In this document: in pieces, positions 29,049-36,449 of the stretch | How positions within the stretch are numbered: position 1 is the stretch's first letter | How the letters are laid out: every line of letters starts with the position of its first letter | Translations under genes and position numbers: made by a program | NCBI GenBank assembly: GCA_945883565.1 | Contig: CAMCXO010000002.1 | Span: forward strand, 62,001 to 126,000 | Reading direction: 5' to 3' | Source: Chryseobacterium gleum | GTDB lineage: Bacteria; Bacteroidota; Bacteroidia; Flavobacteriales; Schleiferiaceae | Length of the DNA stretch: 64,000 bases | The notes under the pieces: generated by a model | Told to the model about the DNA's origin: nothing | The model's input: only the letters and a program-made list of their open reading frames with translations | Databases searched by the model: none

Positions 29049-29654
29049 CTATTTAACCACAGCAAACCCTATATGAACATTACCAGTTTGACAGTCCACA
29101 TACAACTCCCGCTCCATGATAGTGCCATTACAAGTATGAGTCGAACAAAACCACGACCCACCGGCAAGACGAACACGGCCATTATGCATGCTGGACGTAA
29201 TCTCCCAAACATTCCCCAAAACATTCACTTTATTAGCTTTGGCTATGCCCCCGTTGCCGTTGCTTATTACCTCACGCTCATCAAGTTCAACTAGCTGCCA
29301 GTATTCTTCATAGGTAGGTAACCTCGAACCCGACCATTCGCAGTACCTCTGGGCGTCGATAAAACTAACTTGAGTAACGGGTAACTCGCCTGATTTGGGT
29401 TTGTTTTTGCCGTCAGGTGTTCGCCAATTGGCGCCTTCAACCTTTGTAAAGCCAAAAACGTCATTCTGAACAATAGACCAACCAAACCTTTCAGCTTCGG
29501 TTACGTACCCGGTTTCCTTCACGAACTTTTGAAACATACTATACGTCACCACTTGAAGAGGCTCCCTAGAAGCGTCTGTTTTGTTCTGGCAGGCGGCAAT
29601 GGCCAACCAAAACAAGAGCAGAATCCACCTTACATGCTGCGAAAGGGCTTTCAT
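29049..29654 (-). CDS. FGE/SUMF1-fold lipoprotein with conserved paired cysteines
   Basis: 201-aa protein with a lipoprotein signal (lipobox LAIAAC, Cys22), so it faces the periplasm or outside. The rest is a compact formylglycine-generating-enzyme/sulfatase-modifying-factor domain: SRLPTYEEYWQL, LGNVWEITSS, GGSWFC and GFAVV match the family order. The two FGE active-site cysteines are kept with correct spacing (Cys170 and Cys175, C-x4-C after GGSWF). Many SUMF1-fold lipoproteins, such as GldK, lack this pair. I chose the ATG at 29654 for its clean signal peptide. It is last in an operon that also encodes a Cys-type sulfatase, so it may convert the sulfatase cysteine to formylglycine; this is inference. 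Confidence 0.75.
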   Translation of the reverse strand: MKALSQHVRWILLLFWLAIAACQNKTDASREPLQVVTYSMFQKFVKETGYVTEAERFGWSIVQNDVFGFTKVEGANWRTPDGKNKPKSGELPVTQVSFIDAQRYCEWSGSRLPTYEEYWQLVELDEREVISNGNGGIAKANKVNVLGNVWEITSSMHNGRVRLAGGSWFCSTHTCNGTIMERELYVDCQTGNVHIGFAVVK

Positions 29655-29683
29655 CCGGTCAATGCGAAAGAGGAGCAGTATTT

Positions 29684-30406
29684 TTAAAAAGCATACCCTA
29701 CAGACACCGCATAGCGAAAGCTCAAAGTCCAAAATTCGATGTTGGCCGAAGAACTGTTGAGTTCGATCTCATTAAAATCCCGGGTAATGCCAAAATTTTG
29801 GTTCAGCGCTCCCGACAAAGCCGACAATTCATCGGTGCTCAAAGTGCTGCTCGAATTGAAACTAAAGGCATTGTGGCCATAGCCTATTCCGCCAAACTCA
29901 AAATCTAGACGCCAGTTGTTGAGGTTTATTTGATAACCCAGCAGGATGCCAAGATTAACTGCCTGTAGTTCTAGGTTAATTTTAGTGTCCAGATTAACAA
30001 TATTTTCATCAAATTGAGGATTTGAAGAGTATTGCACACTTCTGTACCGAACAAAACCTCCGGCGTAGAAACTGTATGGATTGCTGCCGCACCCACAAAA
30101 ATCAATATAACGCCTCACTTCGGCTATAACATACCGGTTGGTGATGTCGCGGTTTAAAAATTGTAAATCTGCATTTTCAATAAGCTGAAAATCTGATTGG
30201 TCTGCCTTTAAATTTGCGCCAACAACCGCCGAAAGGCTCAAAGTAGGCTTTAAAAAACGCTCGTACGATATTTCGCTTGTGTTGCTTAATAGCGGGGGCA
30301 GAATGCTAATTTTCAACACATTTTTTTTAAAAACAGGTGTTGCGTCTTGGGCCTTTATTATGCCAACACTCATACAAATAGCGAGAAGAAACGTGGTTTT
30401 TTTCAT
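29684..30406 (-). CDS. Predicted outer-membrane beta-barrel protein
   Basis: 240 aa from the MKKTTFLL methionine, with a Sec signal peptide ending IKAQ. The mature chain has alternating hydrophobic strands and ends in SVGYAF, with the terminal Phe typical of outer-membrane barrels. Segments such as EVRRYIDFCGCG and YSFYAGGFVRYR resemble small DUF3575-type barrels. The function is not known to me. It lies 29 bases before the FGE-like lipoprotein gene and 11 after the lipoprotein gene upstream. Confidence 0.7.
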   Translation of the reverse strand: MKKTTFLLAICMSVGIIKAQDATPVFKKNVLKISILPPLLSNTSEISYERFLKPTLSLSAVVGANLKADQSDFQLIENADLQFLNRDITNRYVIAEVRRYIDFCGCGSNPYSFYAGGFVRYRSVQYSSNPQFDENIVNLDTKINLELQAVNLGILLGYQINLNNWRLDFEFGGIGYGHNAFSFNSSSTLSTDELSALSGALNQNFGITRDFNEIELNSSSANIEFWTLSFRYAVSVGYAF

Positions 30407-30417
30407 AGTACACTTTT

Positions 30418-31302
30418 TTACCATCGGCTTATTACTTTTACTGCCGTGCGTGGGTTTTTATCGTTGTTAGGATCAAGGGCAATGTGCTCGTTCACTTCCA
30501 AAAAAATTGGAATACCCGACTGCTTTAAGCACAGGTCTATGTTGTTCTCGCTGTCACCTAAGTCGGCCAGCTTAAAGGGTGTTACTTGAATGGTATCTGA
30601 ACCGCTAACCAAGGTTACAACAAAGTCTTTCAATTCGTTATCGCCAAGTTCTTGCCCATTTAAGGCTCTAACACCACCAGCCCATACGGCTTTTATCACC
30701 ATTTTGGTTTCTTCTTTGGGGCAATCGCAGCCCCTCCCTTTTTCTACATAGGGATAATCGTCATCCAGGGTGAAATACTCAGCATAGCTTAAAATAGGTC
30801 CTTCTTCTAAAGAAATCACCTGTATGCGCTGCCCCTTAAAATTTTGTCCGTTCCTCGACATTAAATCACCTACCACTTCAACCCAAACAGGTGGATTGTC
30901 GGGGTAATTTCCATATTCACCTATAAGAAGCACTGTTCTGAGTTCAAACTCTTCGTTGGCAGGTAAAAAGCTCGCGGCTTCTACCTTAAACACCATTCCG
31001 TTTTGGGTGGTAACAGCAAAATCTTCGGCATCTAAGCTTTTAGGGTCTAGTTCCAGCGAAAAAACCAAGGGCATACCATCCTTTCCGGGGGCTTTTCTGT
31101 ATATGGCTCTGGCACGCTGCGTTAAGCCATTATCAAGCCCAAAGAAGGCGGTTAGTATTTTGGCCTCTCTTTCCTTGTCAATTTCAGGAACAGAATTCGA
31201 CAAATACAGTTTTTGAGGGCTTCGCGCTCCACAACCACTCAATACGGCTGCTATGGTTGCCAGCCAAAACCATGTCTTTAAAGAGGAGTATGCCTTTATC
31301 AT
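30418..31302 (-). CDS. Lipoprotein of unknown function
   Basis: 294 aa with a lipoprotein signal peptide and lipobox LSGC at about residues 21-24. The mature part is beta-rich with a repeated domain look: an N-terminal part (about 40-150, with SLELDPKSLDAEDFAV) and a second part with a cysteine pair (CDCPKEE). Phrases resembling structure-metal or calcium loops (NNDKN, DDDYPYVE) occur, but I cannot name a family. It may be the periplasmic partner of the barrel proteins encoded on either side. Confidence 0.7.
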   Translation of the reverse strand: MIKAYSSLKTWFWLATIAAVLSGCGARSPQKLYLSNSVPEIDKEREAKILTAFFGLDNGLTQRARAIYRKAPGKDGMPLVFSLELDPKSLDAEDFAVTTQNGMVFKVEAASFLPANEEFELRTVLLIGEYGNYPDNPPVWVEVVGDLMSRNGQNFKGQRIQVISLEEGPILSYAEYFTLDDDYPYVEKGRGCDCPKEETKMVIKAVWAGGVRALNGQELGDNELKDFVVTLVSGSDTIQVTPFKLADLGDSENNIDLCLKQSGIPIFLEVNEHIALDPNNDKNPRTAVKVISRW

Positions 31303-31334
31303 GTTTAAGCCTGTTTAATGCTTTGTTTTTAAAT

Positions 31335-32030
31335 TCAAAAAGAATAGGCCAGTAAGAACAAATGCCCGTATTCCTTCTCCGAATGTTGGGTGTAAAATTC
31401 TTCTACTTTGTAATTGAAAGAGAGCTCGTGTTGGTTCTTAAAGCTCTTAGTGGCCATAAGGCCATAATCCCTTTCATTAGAAAACCTTTCGTAAGTTGCT
31501 GGATTTCTAATGAAGAACCACTCAAAATAGGGTCGTACTTTCCATTCAGAATCTTTTTTACTGAAAAGAGGTATGTCCAAGCCAATTTGATAGCGCAGTC
31601 GGCTGTAGTTTTCGTTTGAGAATGATTGGCTTTCTGTCTTAAAAAACCGCCATTCAAGTTTTAGCATTTGCCTAAGAAACCATTCCGAAACTAATGGAAG
31701 TTTATGCTGAACAGACGTCCATGGCCGCACTTCAAAAAAATCCACCGCTTTATTATTGAACGTATAATAGCCATCTGTGCCACCCATAATAGAAAATCGC
31801 TTTATTTTTCGCACACCGGCAAACGAAAGTCCCCAGCGTCTCCAGCTTGGTTCGTTGTACAAATATTTCCAATTGGTCTCTCCAATAAGTTCCCACTTTT
31901 CGTTTTCCATAAGTTTTTTCTCGAGCACCAATTCATGAAAAAACTCACTTTGGCCATTTGCAAAATGGCCTAGCACCAAAAGCAGAATCAAAAAAGGCAG
32001 AAAGCGTAAATAAGGCATTTTGTGGATCAT
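31335..32030 (-). CDS. DUF2490-like outer-membrane protein
   Basis: 231 aa with a signal peptide (ending FANGQ). Repeated amphipathic strands with aromatic girdles (YLYNEPSWRRWGLSF, LRYQIGLDIPLF, VRPYFEWFF) and the end FLLAYSF indicate a beta-barrel of the DUF2490 type. A RxRYQ-like motif in the fourth strand pair is common in that family. Function unknown. It sits 12 bases after the SRPBCC gene in the sulfatase operon. Confidence 0.72.
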   Translation of the reverse strand: MIHKMPYLRFLPFLILLLVLGHFANGQSEFFHELVLEKKLMENEKWELIGETNWKYLYNEPSWRRWGLSFAGVRKIKRFSIMGGTDGYYTFNNKAVDFFEVRPWTSVQHKLPLVSEWFLRQMLKLEWRFFKTESQSFSNENYSRLRYQIGLDIPLFSKKDSEWKVRPYFEWFFIRNPATYERFSNERDYGLMATKSFKNQHELSFNYKVEEFYTQHSEKEYGHLFLLAYSF

Positions 32031-32042
32031 AGATGGCGGGGT

Positions 32043-32510
32043 TTACTTAATGGCCGGATAAATAAATTCAACCCTATCTTTAAGTTCCTGATTAAACTTC
32101 TTGTACATGGAAAGCATTTTATGCTCGGCCAAAAAATTCATAAACCTATTATGGGGGCCATGTAAGCCGTCTTCTTGCTTAAATAAGGTCGTTCCATTTG
32201 CAGTGGGCACAACCGTGTAAATATGATGGTCTTTCAATTTTCCCGCTATACCGCCAGACCAACCAAATTTTCGGCCCTCTTCATACACGGTGCATATGTG
32301 CTCTAAACCTATAACCTTCCCGGTTAATGGTATTTTAAAATACGACACAAATTTCTCGCCTTTAACCAGGGTTTTAGTCGAAATGCCCACAAACGATGAA
32401 CTCCACTCTTTCAAATTCGCCCAATCGGTTAATACACTCCAAACCTCATTTGGAGAAGCCATAATTTCGATCTCGGTAAACACATGGTTGTTTATGTCTT
32501 CCATAATCAT
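32043..32510 (-). CDS. SRPBCC (START/polyketide-cyclase-like) domain protein
   Basis: 155 aa, no signal peptide, so cytoplasmic. It starts with the family pattern EIEIMASPNEVWSVLTDW, followed by FKIPLTGKVIGLEH and the C-terminal helix. SRPBCC domains form a deep hydrophobic pocket that binds lipids or aromatic ligands; some are enzymes. Its start overlaps the sulfatase stop by 4 bases (ATGA). The ligand is unknown; a desulfated hydrophobic product is one possibility. Confidence 0.82.
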   Translation of the reverse strand: MIMEDINNHVFTEIEIMASPNEVWSVLTDWANLKEWSSSFVGISTKTLVKGEKFVSYFKIPLTGKVIGLEHICTVYEEGRKFGWSGGIAGKLKDHHIYTVVPTANGTTLFKQEDGLHGPHNRFMNFLAEHKMLSMYKKFNQELKDRVEFIYPAIK

Positions 32511-34282
32511 TCAGGCTTTTTCAAGTTCCTTTTCCTTCTCTTCAACCAGTAAACCAGTAAGGCACCAAGCACTGCGCTCAACAGGTAGGGGATGTTTTTC
32601 AAAAACATTTGGGTATACGACTTCCTGGCTACGGTTTTTGATGCCGAATAGCCTTTTGGCATCTCTAATACACCTACTGTTTTGGCATATTCTTCATAAG
32701 CTGCCAGCATATTTTGAAACCTAATGGGCTCTTTTTGGGAAAGATCAACCAATTCGCTCGGGTCGTTTTGCAAGTTGTACAGATGCCATTCTGTATCGCC
32801 CAAAGGGATGTTGTTTTTAACTATTTTATACCCATTTAAAAAGTAAGCCGAACTGGCAGCGGCTTCAATGCCAACGCCTTTGTTTTCCGCATAAATCGGT
32901 ACATACGGGTTTTTTATGTGCGGTAACATGCTTTTACCGGTAATGGGCGCGTACCCCTCATTTGCGGTTTTTGACATACCCACCAAATCGTATATAGTAG
33001 GGGCTATATCAGTAAAAAAGCAGAATGCATTGGATTTCTGATTCTTTGGAATGTCTTTTCCACTTACTATAAGGGGTACCCTTAAGCCACCTTCCCCTGT
33101 ATAATACTTAAAGTAAGAAAACGGAGCAGATACAGCATTGGCAAACTCAGGCCCTATATACCCGAAAAACCCTTTCGCACCATTCTTATCCAAATCGGTA
33201 TGGTAGCCATTCCTTTTCGCCCAAATAAGGCCTTGGGTATAATCGGCACCATCTGGGCCATTGTCAGAGGTTACAATGAAAATGGTATTTTCCATCAGGC
33301 CTTTTTGTGTAAGATACTCAATGTACCTACCTATGTGGTGGTCCATGGCTTCAAGCATACCTGCCGTAACGGCCATAGCACTGATGTGGTATTCCCTTTC
33401 TTTTTCCGATAGTTCTTCCCACTTTTTAAATTGAGGAAATACATCGGCAAACTGGGCACTTTCGGGAATAAAGCCGAGTTGTTTGGCTTTTTGAAATCGT
33501 TTTTCCCGAAGCTTGTTCCAACCTTCTTTGTAGGTTTCTTTATAGTGTTTTACAAACTCCTCTGGTGCTTGTATGGGCGCATGAATGGCCTGAAAGGCAA
33601 TATAGCTAAAGAATGGATTGTTTTTATTCGGTTCATTTTCATGAAATTCGATGGTTTTGTCGATATAGGTTTTCGATGAATAAAAATCTTCTGGCAACTC
33701 AACTTCTTTTCCATCTTCATACCAATGGGCCACCGGCTTCATGGGCAAATACCCGCTGTTGTTATAGTTGCTCGCACCAGAGCCCCCTAAAATAAAGGAG
33801 CGGTCAAAGCCTCTGCTCGAGGGCAAGGTTTTATCATCATGGCCTAAATGCCATTTGCCCGTCATATACGTATTGTAATGAACTTCCTTTAAACGGGTGG
33901 CAATGGTTTGTACTTTTTCATTCAAAACCCCTTCATACCCGGGCTTGCTTTGAAATTCTTCGTTTAAGAATTCAGGCAAATTGGCCACACCGGCCAAATG
34001 GCTATCGGTTCCTGTAAGTAACATGGCCCTCGAAGGCGCACAAACGGGAGAGGCATGCATATTGGTAAACATTAACCCACCACTGGCCAGTCGGTCAATG
34101 TGCGGTGTGCGAGCCTCTCCACCAAAGGCGCCAAAATCCATCAAACCCGAATCATCAACCAAAATGAGAACAATATTGGGTTTTGAATTCGGACTCGTTG
34201 CGTTTTGACAAAAAACGAAATCATGAAAGCCGATTAAAAAAGAAATGCAGAAGAAAAATCGGCTTAAACGTTTAAGTCTCAT
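32507..34282 (-). CDS. Membrane-anchored Cys-type arylsulfatase
   Basis: 591-aa type I sulfatase (alkaline-phosphatase superfamily). A signal peptide (about 1-26) is followed by metal ligands Asp43-Asp44 (LVDDSG) and the active-site signature CAPSRAMLLTG, Cys81, which must become formylglycine. MTGKWHLGH and TSDNGPDGADY supply further catalytic and metal residues. It resembles arylsulfatases of the AtsA-like type. The C-terminus is unusual: a hydrophobic helix (about 560-578) followed by a run of Lys/Arg, consistent with an inner-membrane anchor with the enzyme in the periplasm. Substrate unknown. It overlaps both neighbours by 4 bases. Confidence 0.92.
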   Translation of the reverse strand: MRLKRLSRFFFCISFLIGFHDFVFCQNATSPNSKPNIVLILVDDSGLMDFGAFGGEARTPHIDRLASGGLMFTNMHASPVCAPSRAMLLTGTDSHLAGVANLPEFLNEEFQSKPGYEGVLNEKVQTIATRLKEVHYNTYMTGKWHLGHDDKTLPSSRGFDRSFILGGSGASNYNNSGYLPMKPVAHWYEDGKEVELPEDFYSSKTYIDKTIEFHENEPNKNNPFFSYIAFQAIHAPIQAPEEFVKHYKETYKEGWNKLREKRFQKAKQLGFIPESAQFADVFPQFKKWEELSEKEREYHISAMAVTAGMLEAMDHHIGRYIEYLTQKGLMENTIFIVTSDNGPDGADYTQGLIWAKRNGYHTDLDKNGAKGFFGYIGPEFANAVSAPFSYFKYYTGEGGLRVPLIVSGKDIPKNQKSNAFCFFTDIAPTIYDLVGMSKTANEGYAPITGKSMLPHIKNPYVPIYAENKGVGIEAAASSAYFLNGYKIVKNNIPLGDTEWHLYNLQNDPSELVDLSQKEPIRFQNMLAAYEEYAKTVGVLEMPKGYSASKTVARKSYTQMFLKNIPYLLSAVLGALLVYWLKRRKRNLKKPE

Positions 34283-35139
34283 AATTCTTTTTCTATTAAG
34301 GTTTTCATCATCAATTGAGCGGTTTCATGGCTGGAATTTTGATTTTGCCCTGTAACAAACCGTTTTTCTTGATCTATTACCGTAATGGTATTAAACTGAT
34401 CTATGGGTTTCGATTTGTCGGCTTTATAATTGCCACCGGCCTTTTTAATCTCTTCTTCAGGGTGATAAGGCGTAAACTCAATGCCAAAAGACAATATCTG
34501 TTTCTGCGTAACCCCGGTCATGGGCCGGCCCTTTATTAAATAATCACCATTCTTATCTCTTGCCTCTGTAAAAGCCAAAGCACCATGGCATACACTGCCC
34601 ATAATAACATCCGACTCATAATAGGCATCAGAAACCTTCGTCGCCACTATTTCCGAATTCATATCATAAGCTGCTCCCCAGCCTCCGGCAAAAAAAACAA
34701 TGTCGTACTGCTTAATGTCCAAGTCGGCTATGGCAATTGAATGCTTTATTTTGGCTTGAAAGGTTTTGTCGTTTTCAAATCGCTTGTCTTCTTTTGAAGC
34801 CAGAAAATAATAGAATGACTGTGGGTCGATGGGAATCTCGCCACCCTTTATGCTGGCGATATCCACTTCCATTTTGGCATCCAAAAATTCATAATAGGGT
34901 ATGGTCATTTCAGACGCAAATACCCCGGTGGGTTGTCCGGTGGTCTCTCCCGGCTTGTTTAAAATGTCATGACTGGTAGCCACAATAAGGGCTTTTTTTC
35001 CTTTTAAATTGAACGTTTCTCCGTTATAATCTGGATGAAAACCCCGAGATTTCAGAATGCCGGGCAAGGCTATGGCAAGCAAACCCATAAACGCTGCTCC
35101 GGCAAGCAAGAAATACAATGCTTTTTTATTCATTTTCAT
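34279..35139 (-). CDS. DJ-1/PfpI-family protein with N-terminal membrane anchor
   Basis: 286 aa. Residues about 6-28 form a hydrophobic helix without a clear cleavage site, so it is probably tethered to the inner membrane with the domain outside. The rest is a DJ-1/PfpI (Hsp31-like class I glutamine-amidotransferase fold) domain: nucleophile Cys184 with His185 in GSVCHGALAF, Glu77 in ASEMTIPYY, and GGWGAAYDM. Hsp31-type members are glyoxalases, deglycases or chaperones. An extracytoplasmic anchored form is uncommon. It overlaps the sulfatase gene as ATGA. Confidence 0.82.
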   Translation of the reverse strand: MKMNKKALYFLLAGAAFMGLLAIALPGILKSRGFHPDYNGETFNLKGKKALIVATSHDILNKPGETTGQPTGVFASEMTIPYYEFLDAKMEVDIASIKGGEIPIDPQSFYYFLASKEDKRFENDKTFQAKIKHSIAIADLDIKQYDIVFFAGGWGAAYDMNSEIVATKVSDAYYESDVIMGSVCHGALAFTEARDKNGDYLIKGRPMTGVTQKQILSFGIEFTPYHPEEEIKKAGGNYKADKSKPIDQFNTITVIDQEKRFVTGQNQNSSHETAQLMMKTLIEKEL

Positions 35140-35187
35140 GGTGTTTACAACGTTTTAAAAAAGGTTGCTTATAATATACTTTATCAA

Positions 35188-35718
35188 TTATTTGGCGCTC
35201 AGGTTCTCACCTATAAAGGGTATTTCGGTATAAACGTTGGCCTGTATAATGGCGTTGAAGTAACTTTCTATTTGCCAAAACTGAGCCGCCTTGCTAATGC
35301 CTACTTCCTTTTTCATTTTCTTGAAATAGGTGGTTTGCAACTTGTCGCTCGATTTTTTAAGGTCTTGGGTACGTTTGAAAAGCGACAATAATTTCTCGTC
35401 AGAAATATCAGGATAACTTGTCGCATAGTCTATTATAACTTGTATTCTCTCTTTGCCTAGTTTTTTGCGCTCTACTTCATACTCATCGTAGATTTTCCAA
35501 AAGCCAACTGCCGATTCACCGAAGTTCATAAAATTTGCAACCGCCACTTTCTTTTCAAGCCCAAAAGCATCTTGAAAAATAGCCACTTCCGACTGGTTAG
35601 ATTGCCCATAAACAGCATTCGATAAAAACAAAAAGAAAACGAAAGCCAATTCAAAGGCCTTTACAACAGTTTTGCTTTTGCCAAGTGCTTCGAGCTTTTT
35701 TTGAACATAAAGTTTCAT
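35188..35718 (-). CDS. Secreted hypothetical protein, 176 aa
   Basis: Signal peptide after a long polar N-terminus (hydrophobic core AFVFFLFLSNAVYGQ). The mature ~135 residues are helical and rich in Lys/Glu (YEVERKKLGKERIQ, KRTQDLKKSSDKL), similar in look to Spy/CpxP-like or small periplasmic helical proteins of Bacteroidota; I do not recognise a family. I use the ATG at 35718 because the 14 codons before it read poorly. First gene after the Crp-like regulator and probably the start of the sulfatase operon. Confidence 0.65.
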   Translation of the reverse strand: MKLYVQKKLEALGKSKTVVKAFELAFVFFLFLSNAVYGQSNQSEVAIFQDAFGLEKKVAVANFMNFGESAVGFWKIYDEYEVERKKLGKERIQVIIDYATSYPDISDEKLLSLFKRTQDLKKSSDKLQTTYFKKMKKEVGISKAAQFWQIESYFNAIIQANVYTEIPFIGENLSAK

Positions 35719-35801: not shown

Positions 35802-36383
35802 TCATGAATTTCTGCCTCTTATGCGACTTAACTGCGTTGGGGTTACGCCAATCATAGAGGCAATAAAGCGAAGAGGGAATTTTTTTAGAATGCTCGGATT
35901 TGTGCGTATCAGGTATTCGTATCGCTCTTTGGCTGTACCGTTTAAAAATAAGAGGTGGCGCTTTATCAGCTGCATGGCCCTGTCGCCCATGTATTCGCGT
36001 ATAAGAATGTTAAAGGTTAAGTTTTCTCTAAGCAACTCCAAAACTTCCTCCATTGGGGCAACAAGCAGGTCCGATTTTTCTAAAAGCTCTATAATTATCG
36101 GAGATCTTTCATTCGTTCTAACGCTTATTATATCAGATAAAAAATTTTTATTCTGAAGCACTTCGTCGGTTATCTCATCGCCTTTATCGTTAATAAAGTA
36201 AGACCGGGCGCTTCCCGAAACAAGGAACCCAAGATTTAAAACAACCGTATCGCGTTCTTTAAACAGCGAGCCTTTCTCATAAACTGCCTCTTGAAAGATG
36301 GAAAGAATCACCATAACCTCGTCTTTTTTCGCGGTTTTCACCCTGTAATAAATAAATTCTTCAAAGGTGTTTTTCATGGCCAT
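35802..36383 (-). CDS. Crp/Fnr-family-like transcriptional regulator
   Basis: Helical N-terminus, then a cyclic-nucleotide-binding-like beta roll (about 30-115, with GSLFKERDTVVLNLGFLVSG) and a C-terminal helix-turn-helix (FIASMIGVTPTQLSRIRG) that matches the recognition helix of Bacteroidota Crp-like proteins. The usual phosphate-binding Arg-x-Ser-Ala signature is not evident, so it may not bind cAMP. Start chosen at 36383 (a second ATG two codons later); the frame remains open upstream to 36449. It is 83 bases upstream of the secreted-protein gene and probably regulates the operon. Confidence 0.8.
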   Translation of the reverse strand: MAMKNTFEEFIYYRVKTAKKDEVMVILSIFQEAVYEKGSLFKERDTVVLNLGFLVSGSARSYFINDKGDEITDEVLQNKNFLSDIISVRTNERSPIIIELLEKSDLLVAPMEEVLELLRENLTFNILIREYMGDRAMQLIKRHLLFLNGTAKERYEYLIRTNPSILKKFPLRFIASMIGVTPTQLSRIRGRNS

Positions 36384-36449
36384 GACAAAGCTGGGGTTTT
36401 TAACGGCTGGATTTAAAACAAAATCTGCACAAAGAAATTTTAAATTCAA

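Follow-up and report, generated by a model that had tools for sequence, protein, structure and literature searches.

An exported minimal FGE candidate, conserved in Bacteroidota, shares an operon with a Cys-type sulfatase

The 64,000-nucleotide (nt) stretch of DNA analyzed here, the window (contig CAMCXO010000002.1 of assembly GCA_945883565.1, filed under Chryseobacterium gleum), contains eight closely spaced minus-strand genes at 29049-35718 with the spacing of an operon. A gene for a Crp-like regulator precedes them, and the whole set spans 36449 down to 29049. The last gene encodes a small lipoprotein resembling formylglycine-generating enzyme (FGE), and the same operon encodes a sulfatase of the formylglycine (FGly) type. 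An earlier reading of this DNA, made without database searches (the sequence-only reading), proposed that the lipoprotein is an FGE that matures the exported sulfatase. In the order of the minus strand, with lengths in amino acids (aa), the genes are:

35802..36449, minus strand: Crp/Fnr-type regulator, directly upstream of the operon (PF00027, 23.5 bits, just below cut-off)
35188..35718 (internal-ATG coordinates), minus strand: operon gene 1, exported protein of ~176 aa, family unassigned (no family match; orthologs in loci L045 and L047)
34279..35139, minus strand: DJ-1/PfpI family protein with an N-terminal membrane anchor (PF01965, 31.5 bits, cut-off 26.6)
32507..34282, minus strand: FGly-type sulfatase, CAPSR with Cys81 (PF00884, 194 bits)
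32043..32510, minus strand: SRPBCC/START-like protein (PF10604, Polyketide_cyc2, 47.9 bits; also in L045 and L047)
31335..32030, minus strand: DUF2490 putative outer-membrane barrel (PF10677, 33.6 bits, cut-off 29.8; also in L045, L047, L048 and L097)
30418..31302, minus strand: 294-aa lipoprotein, lipobox SGC (no Pfam or NCBIfam match; orthologs in L045, L047 and L097)
29684..30424, minus strand: 246-aa putative outer-membrane beta-barrel (PF13505, OMP_b-brl, 15.9 bits, below the cut-off of 28.7; ortholog in L047)
29049..29654, minus strand: 201-aa lipoprotein, minimal exported FGE candidate (PF03781, 65.6 bits)

The 201-aa lipoprotein is read from an ATG at 29654 to 29049. It carries the lipobox IAAC with Cys22 and, near its end, the segment GGSWFC-STHT-C, whose cysteines are Cys170 and Cys175; the lipoprotein signal and the C-x4-C pair after GGSWF are thus as the sequence-only reading described them. 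Its match to PF03781 (FGE-sulfatase; cut-off 23.3 bits) covers the N-terminal part of the model only. An earlier structure prediction from four sequences reached a mean confidence (pLDDT) of 44 and was discarded. An AlphaFold2 model built from 64 orthologs reached a pLDDT of 92.6 and a predicted template modeling score of 0.84, and in this model the lipoprotein has the FGE fold. All of the best 29 Foldseek matches belong to FGEs, their human paralogue or FGE-like CalU17 (E 3e-14 onward), with SUMF2, which is also among the best sequence matches, as the best single hit. When FGEs from the Protein Data Bank were aligned to the model with VIA-align, Z scores were 20.6-22.3 over ~173 residues (root-mean-square deviation 2.0-2.4, 30%-33% identity), against 15.3 for PvdO, ~14 for EgtB and ~13.5 for PorK. 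Two other identities were considered and rejected. An EgtB/SenA sulfoxide synthase is excluded by the NCBIfam equivalog models (SenA, 41.8 of 420 bits; EgtB, 38 of 360 bits), and a PorK/GldK/GldJ protein by the invariant cysteine pair, the lack of insertions and an hhalign alignment to GldK of only 40 columns (E 3e-5).

The position of the two cysteines within this fold follows from the C-terminal tail. The structural alignments end with model residue 201 opposite residue 367 of the human enzyme, 300 of the T. curvata enzyme and 303 of the S. coelicolor enzyme. With an ungapped tail, Cys170 falls on positions 336, 269 and 272, and Cys175 on 341, 274 and 277, respectively. This places the pair on the human catalytic residues Cys336/Cys341 and on the catalytic pairs of the two bacterial enzymes. 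Profile alignment to the full-length FGEs of Bacteroidota shows the tail to be ungapped and the cysteines to be paired with the two in GGSFLC-x4-C (probability 99.9, E 4e-31). The comparison with FGE structures suggested by the sequence-only reading therefore came out in its favor, with FGEs ranked first and the cysteines in catalytic register.

Scanning 84,980 species genomes gave 80 loci. Close orthologs account for 68 of them, and together with the window these form a family of 69. All orthologs with a stated taxon are from Bacteroidota. Nearly all have a lipobox, a few have a plain signal peptide instead, and the C-x4-C pair is present in every member (69/69). Ser167 (human Ser333), Trp150, Gly165 and Gly166 are invariant across the 64 alignment rows, and the profile alignment identifies Trp150 as the Trp of GNVWEW. 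Mutations at five positions of human FGE alter its activity: Cys336, Cys341, Ser333, His337 and Tyr340 (PMC4505483). Three of these five residues are kept in the minimal family. One member departs from the rest: the minimal FGE at L110:9989-10510 has lost the usual C terminus past the second cysteine, and the only PF00884 match of its genome lacks an FGly motif. Perhaps this truncation reflects decay after loss of the client, or a sequencing error.

The sulfatase of the operon matches PF00884 and carries the C-x-P-x-R signature of S1 sulfatases as CAPSR; its cysteine is residue 81, and the Cys-type assignment of the sequence-only reading is thereby confirmed. The protein has an N-terminal signal and, toward the C terminus, a transmembrane helix and then KRRKR, and its nearest solved structure is the arylsulfatase 1hdh (E 8e-100). 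In the order sampled, G000 and G136 are the only genomes with an ortholog of this sulfatase at 60% identity or more, and both also encode the lipoprotein; four genomes of the same genus lack both genes.

Across the family, 38 of 69 loci have a sulfatase gene no more than 3 kb away from the lipoprotein gene. A same-strand sulfatase neighbor within 150 bp was found for 29 of the 69 lipoproteins versus 28 of 856 (3%) other genes at the same loci; the Fisher p of 1e-20 overstates independence, because the orthologs are related and relatedness was ignored, and the safer number is that the adjacent sulfatases form eight groups at 45% identity. Since there are eight such groups, and the sulfatase gene lies upstream in some loci and downstream in others, the link probably arose repeatedly. 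The co-occurrence with sulfatases that the sequence-only reading had asked about is therefore strong and repeated. The readable sulfatase motifs beside the lipoprotein are all of the Cys type (CxPSR, CxASR, CxPTR and CxPAR), with no Ser-type motif among them. Clusters of four to seven sulfatase genes stand beside the minimal FGE in marine Bacteroidota (L066, L072, L075, L076, L078, L082, L085, L089 and L093). For the small genomes of L066 and L075, the minimal FGE is the only PF03781 gene found.

We also asked which other proteins could mature the sulfatase. The window's genome, which is 99.44% complete and was searched by models only, contains four PF03781 genes, and the three besides the lipoprotein lack the cysteine pair. 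These three, rejected as maturases, encode a GldK-like protein, a GldJ-like protein and a 668-aa PEGA-FGE protein (GGSWHFTASGC). The last, at L001 (C17:11950-12603 of the same genome), is PEGA-like with a C-terminal FGE-like domain. No canonical FGE was detected by this search and no anaerobic sulfatase-maturating enzyme (anSME), for which the score of 24 bits falls short of the 349 required by the model. A second PF00884 match was set aside as a client, as it has no FGly motif. Because the genome thus encodes one FGly-type sulfatase and neither a canonical FGE nor an anSME, the lipoprotein is its only maturase candidate; the cytoplasmic FGE or anSME that the sequence-only reading thought should be looked for did not appear. 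Among 22 further lipoprotein-bearing genomes, none reached the anSME cut-off, and no other PF03781 protein that was read had a cysteine pair, the unread ones being of GldK/GldJ length. Two Zeaxanthinibacter isolates each encode a single sulfatase of the Cys type, which by its sequence is also a lipoprotein, and a minimal FGE at a separate genomic site; neither a canonical FGE nor an anSME was found in either. Zeaxanthinibacter enoshimensis DSM 18435 has this makeup.

Exported FGEs in Bacteroidota are not confined to the minimal family. Beside it, the scan turned up full-length FGEs of ~350-400 aa with the canonical GGSFLC-x-x-x-Y-C motif and a lipobox, which occur in 46 of 395 Bacteroidota genomes searched. 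Of 37 that were read (L117-L119, L121-L124 and L186-L215), 32 have a lipobox-like sequence, five have another N-terminal hydrophobic signal or anchor, and none looks cytosolic. With a lipobox or membrane signal in all 37, FGE export may be phylum-wide in Bacteroidota; as the search query was itself a lipoprotein FGE, the exported set is a strong lead and not a census. In a phylogenetic tree, the minimal family forms one separate group (support 100/99), whose neighbor is the protein of L113. That protein (L113:9809-10588) is a 260-aa lipoprotein FGE, between the full-length and minimal enzymes in length and sequence, with a sulfatase gene just upstream. No genome contains both kinds (4 and 46 of 395), which is as chance allows and was not used as evidence. 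The lipoprotein, then, is not special to the operon in which the sequence-only reading noticed it: it belongs to a Bacteroidota-wide family, and exported full-length FGEs are common in the phylum as well.

Together, these results describe a genuine and conserved minimal FGE that is exported, has predicted activity and has apparently not been described before. We consider it likely that the 201-aa protein is a minimal periplasmic FGE, dependent on O2 and copper, that acts after Sec export on an exported Cys-type sulfatase. Fold, cysteine register, sulfatase linkage and the lack of any other maturase support this proposal of the sequence-only reading; we infer catalysis, copper binding, the timing (during or after export) and which membrane is involved. 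In known FGEs, a bis-thiolate Cu(I) site takes the peptidyl-cysteine as third ligand and reacts with O2 (PMC12123546), and FGE is active in the oxidizing endoplasmic reticulum (ER) and, in vitro, on folded proteins (PMC4505483). In our model, Sec would export the sulfatase unfolded and also the minimal FGE, which would receive its lipid at Cys22 and stay on the periplasmic face of a membrane. Cys170 and Cys175 would hold Cu(I), the enzyme would capture Cys81 of the CAPSR segment, and O2 would oxidize it to FGly, in a reaction much like that of the human enzyme in the ER, whereupon the sulfatase would fold to its active form. The client here would be the CAPSR sulfatase, held at a membrane by its C-terminal helix; elsewhere in the phylum, clients would be other Cys-type sulfatases, many of them also lipoproteins.

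Several observations weigh against this proposal. The position of Tyr340 (residue 174) is occupied by Thr or Ser, with one Lys, and that of His337 (residue 171) by Ser, Asn, Asp or Ala. The Tyr340 equivalent is constant in the full-length Bacteroidota FGEs read, although the later collection of 37 was gathered using a pattern that included this Tyr. In addition, the domain spans ~180 residues rather than ~270 and has lost the arginine of the C-terminal GFR, 31 of the 69 orthologs have no sulfatase gene within 3 kb, and three Tenacibaculum genomes encode a radical-SAM protein scoring 180 bits to the anSME model, below its cut-off of 349. The His337 position is also variable in full-length Bacteroidota FGEs, and for this reason we read the loss of His337 and Tyr340 as divergence. 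Because neither residue is retained, we call the protein an FGE variant and not a plain FGE; with two residues known to matter replaced, it cannot be called a proven one. An unlinked maturase may act in trans.

The residue losses would also fit an FGE-fold lipoprotein without catalytic activity that serves the sulfatase as chaperone, anchor or regulator, in the manner of SUMF2 (pFGE) or PorK/GldK/GldJ. SUMF2 is among the top structural and sequence matches, and the phylum has lipoproteins of FGE fold whose role is structural (PMC12421860). However, PorK-type proteins lack the two active-site cysteines (PMC12421860), which are kept here in every ortholog along with the invariant Ser333 and Trp positions; the short GldK profile match compares with E 4e-31 to canonical FGE; and a non-catalytic protein would leave the genome's Cys-type sulfatase without any maturase. 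We therefore regard this explanation as unlikely. Maturation of the sulfatase by an unrecognized cytoplasmic enzyme, with the lipoprotein serving a different exported cysteine substrate, is quite improbable. In its favor, the FGE of prokaryotes is described as cytosolic (PMC4505483) and the unlinked orthologs leave room for other clients; against it, the nearly complete genome yielded neither a cytosolic FGE nor an anSME, the lipoprotein is linked to sulfatases, and in the order sampled close orthologs of this sulfatase occur only alongside it. Finally, a pair of cysteines could bind Cu(I) so as to handle or deliver copper and not to oxidize sulfatases. This seems very improbable, as sulfatases are the recurrent neighbors across lineages; no other recurrent partner was seen, including among the neighbors of the unlinked orthologs.

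The preferred reading, a minimal exported FGE, sets the family apart from known systems. FGE/SUMF1 (human, S. coelicolor and T. curvata) shares the fold, the C-x4-C pair after GGS, the Ser333 and Trp positions and the linkage to Cys-type sulfatases. These enzymes have ~270 residues and are cytosolic (in bacteria) or ER-luminal (in human), whereas the minimal family has ~180 residues, is an exported lipoprotein, and shows Thr for Tyr340, Ser for His337 and GFA or GFS for GFR. Full-length Bacteroidota FGE lipoproteins share the export signal and the conserved cysteine pair but are ~350-400 aa long, carry the canonical C-x-x-x-Y-C and are separate in the tree. SUMF2/pFGE shares the fold and a secretory-pathway location; pFGE is not known to have the catalytic cysteines, both of which the minimal family retains. 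The T9SS and gliding proteins PorK, GldK and GldJ are likewise Bacteroidota lipoproteins with an FGE-like fold, but theirs is a structural ring role without catalytic cysteines (PMC12421860). An anSME yields the same sulfatase reaction product, yet is an unrelated radical-SAM enzyme and was not found in the window's genome.

Since bacterial FGE is described as cytosolic, sulfatases have been thought to be matured before export; the lipobox or signal peptide found here does not match that location. In the literature searched, outside which most subscription journals fell, we found no description of a lipoprotein FGE with catalytic cysteines, and an earlier one is possible. On balance, we lean toward the broader view that Bacteroidota carry out O2-dependent sulfatase maturation in the envelope with two kinds of exported FGE, full-length and minimal (~180 residues), and that neither the complete domain nor the conserved Tyr is required for catalysis. 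These bacteria would then have their own equivalent of the ER pathway. If confirmed, envelope maturation would give an essential protein modification a new location, alter the picture of maturation in a phylum that degrades much sulfated polysaccharide in sea and gut, and account for genomes with Cys-type sulfatases but neither a cytosolic FGE nor an anSME. An FGE of ~180 residues, much shorter than those characterized, would be useful for aldehyde tagging of proteins outside the cytoplasm and would offer a naturally occurring test of the active-site residues required.

The remainder of the operon is compact. Overlaps of 4 nt join the DJ-1 and sulfatase genes and the sulfatase and SRPBCC genes, one of 7 nt joins the 294-aa lipoprotein gene to that of the outer-membrane barrel, and the 201-aa lipoprotein gene starts 29 nt past the barrel's stop codon. 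In the gene set given by the sequence-only reading, the DJ-1 protein, the SRPBCC protein and the DUF2490 barrel hold up by Pfam, and the second barrel has only its sub-threshold OMP_b-brl match. The DJ-1/PfpI gene is a conserved partner, adjoining the sulfatase in L045, L046, L047, L051, L056 and L097, and the set of DJ-1, sulfatase and lipoprotein also occurs in Cytophagaceae, Flavobacteriales, Saprospiraceae and Microscillaceae genomes. With this core recurring in other Bacteroidota families and the cysteine pair kept in all orthologs, the arrangement of operon and motif is far beyond chance. Orthologs of the Crp/Fnr-type protein adjoin the operon in L045, L046, L047, L048, L051, L056 and L097, and it is the probable regulator. 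Orthologs of the 294-aa lipoprotein (30418-31302) accompany the operon in three other loci at 65%-79% identity.
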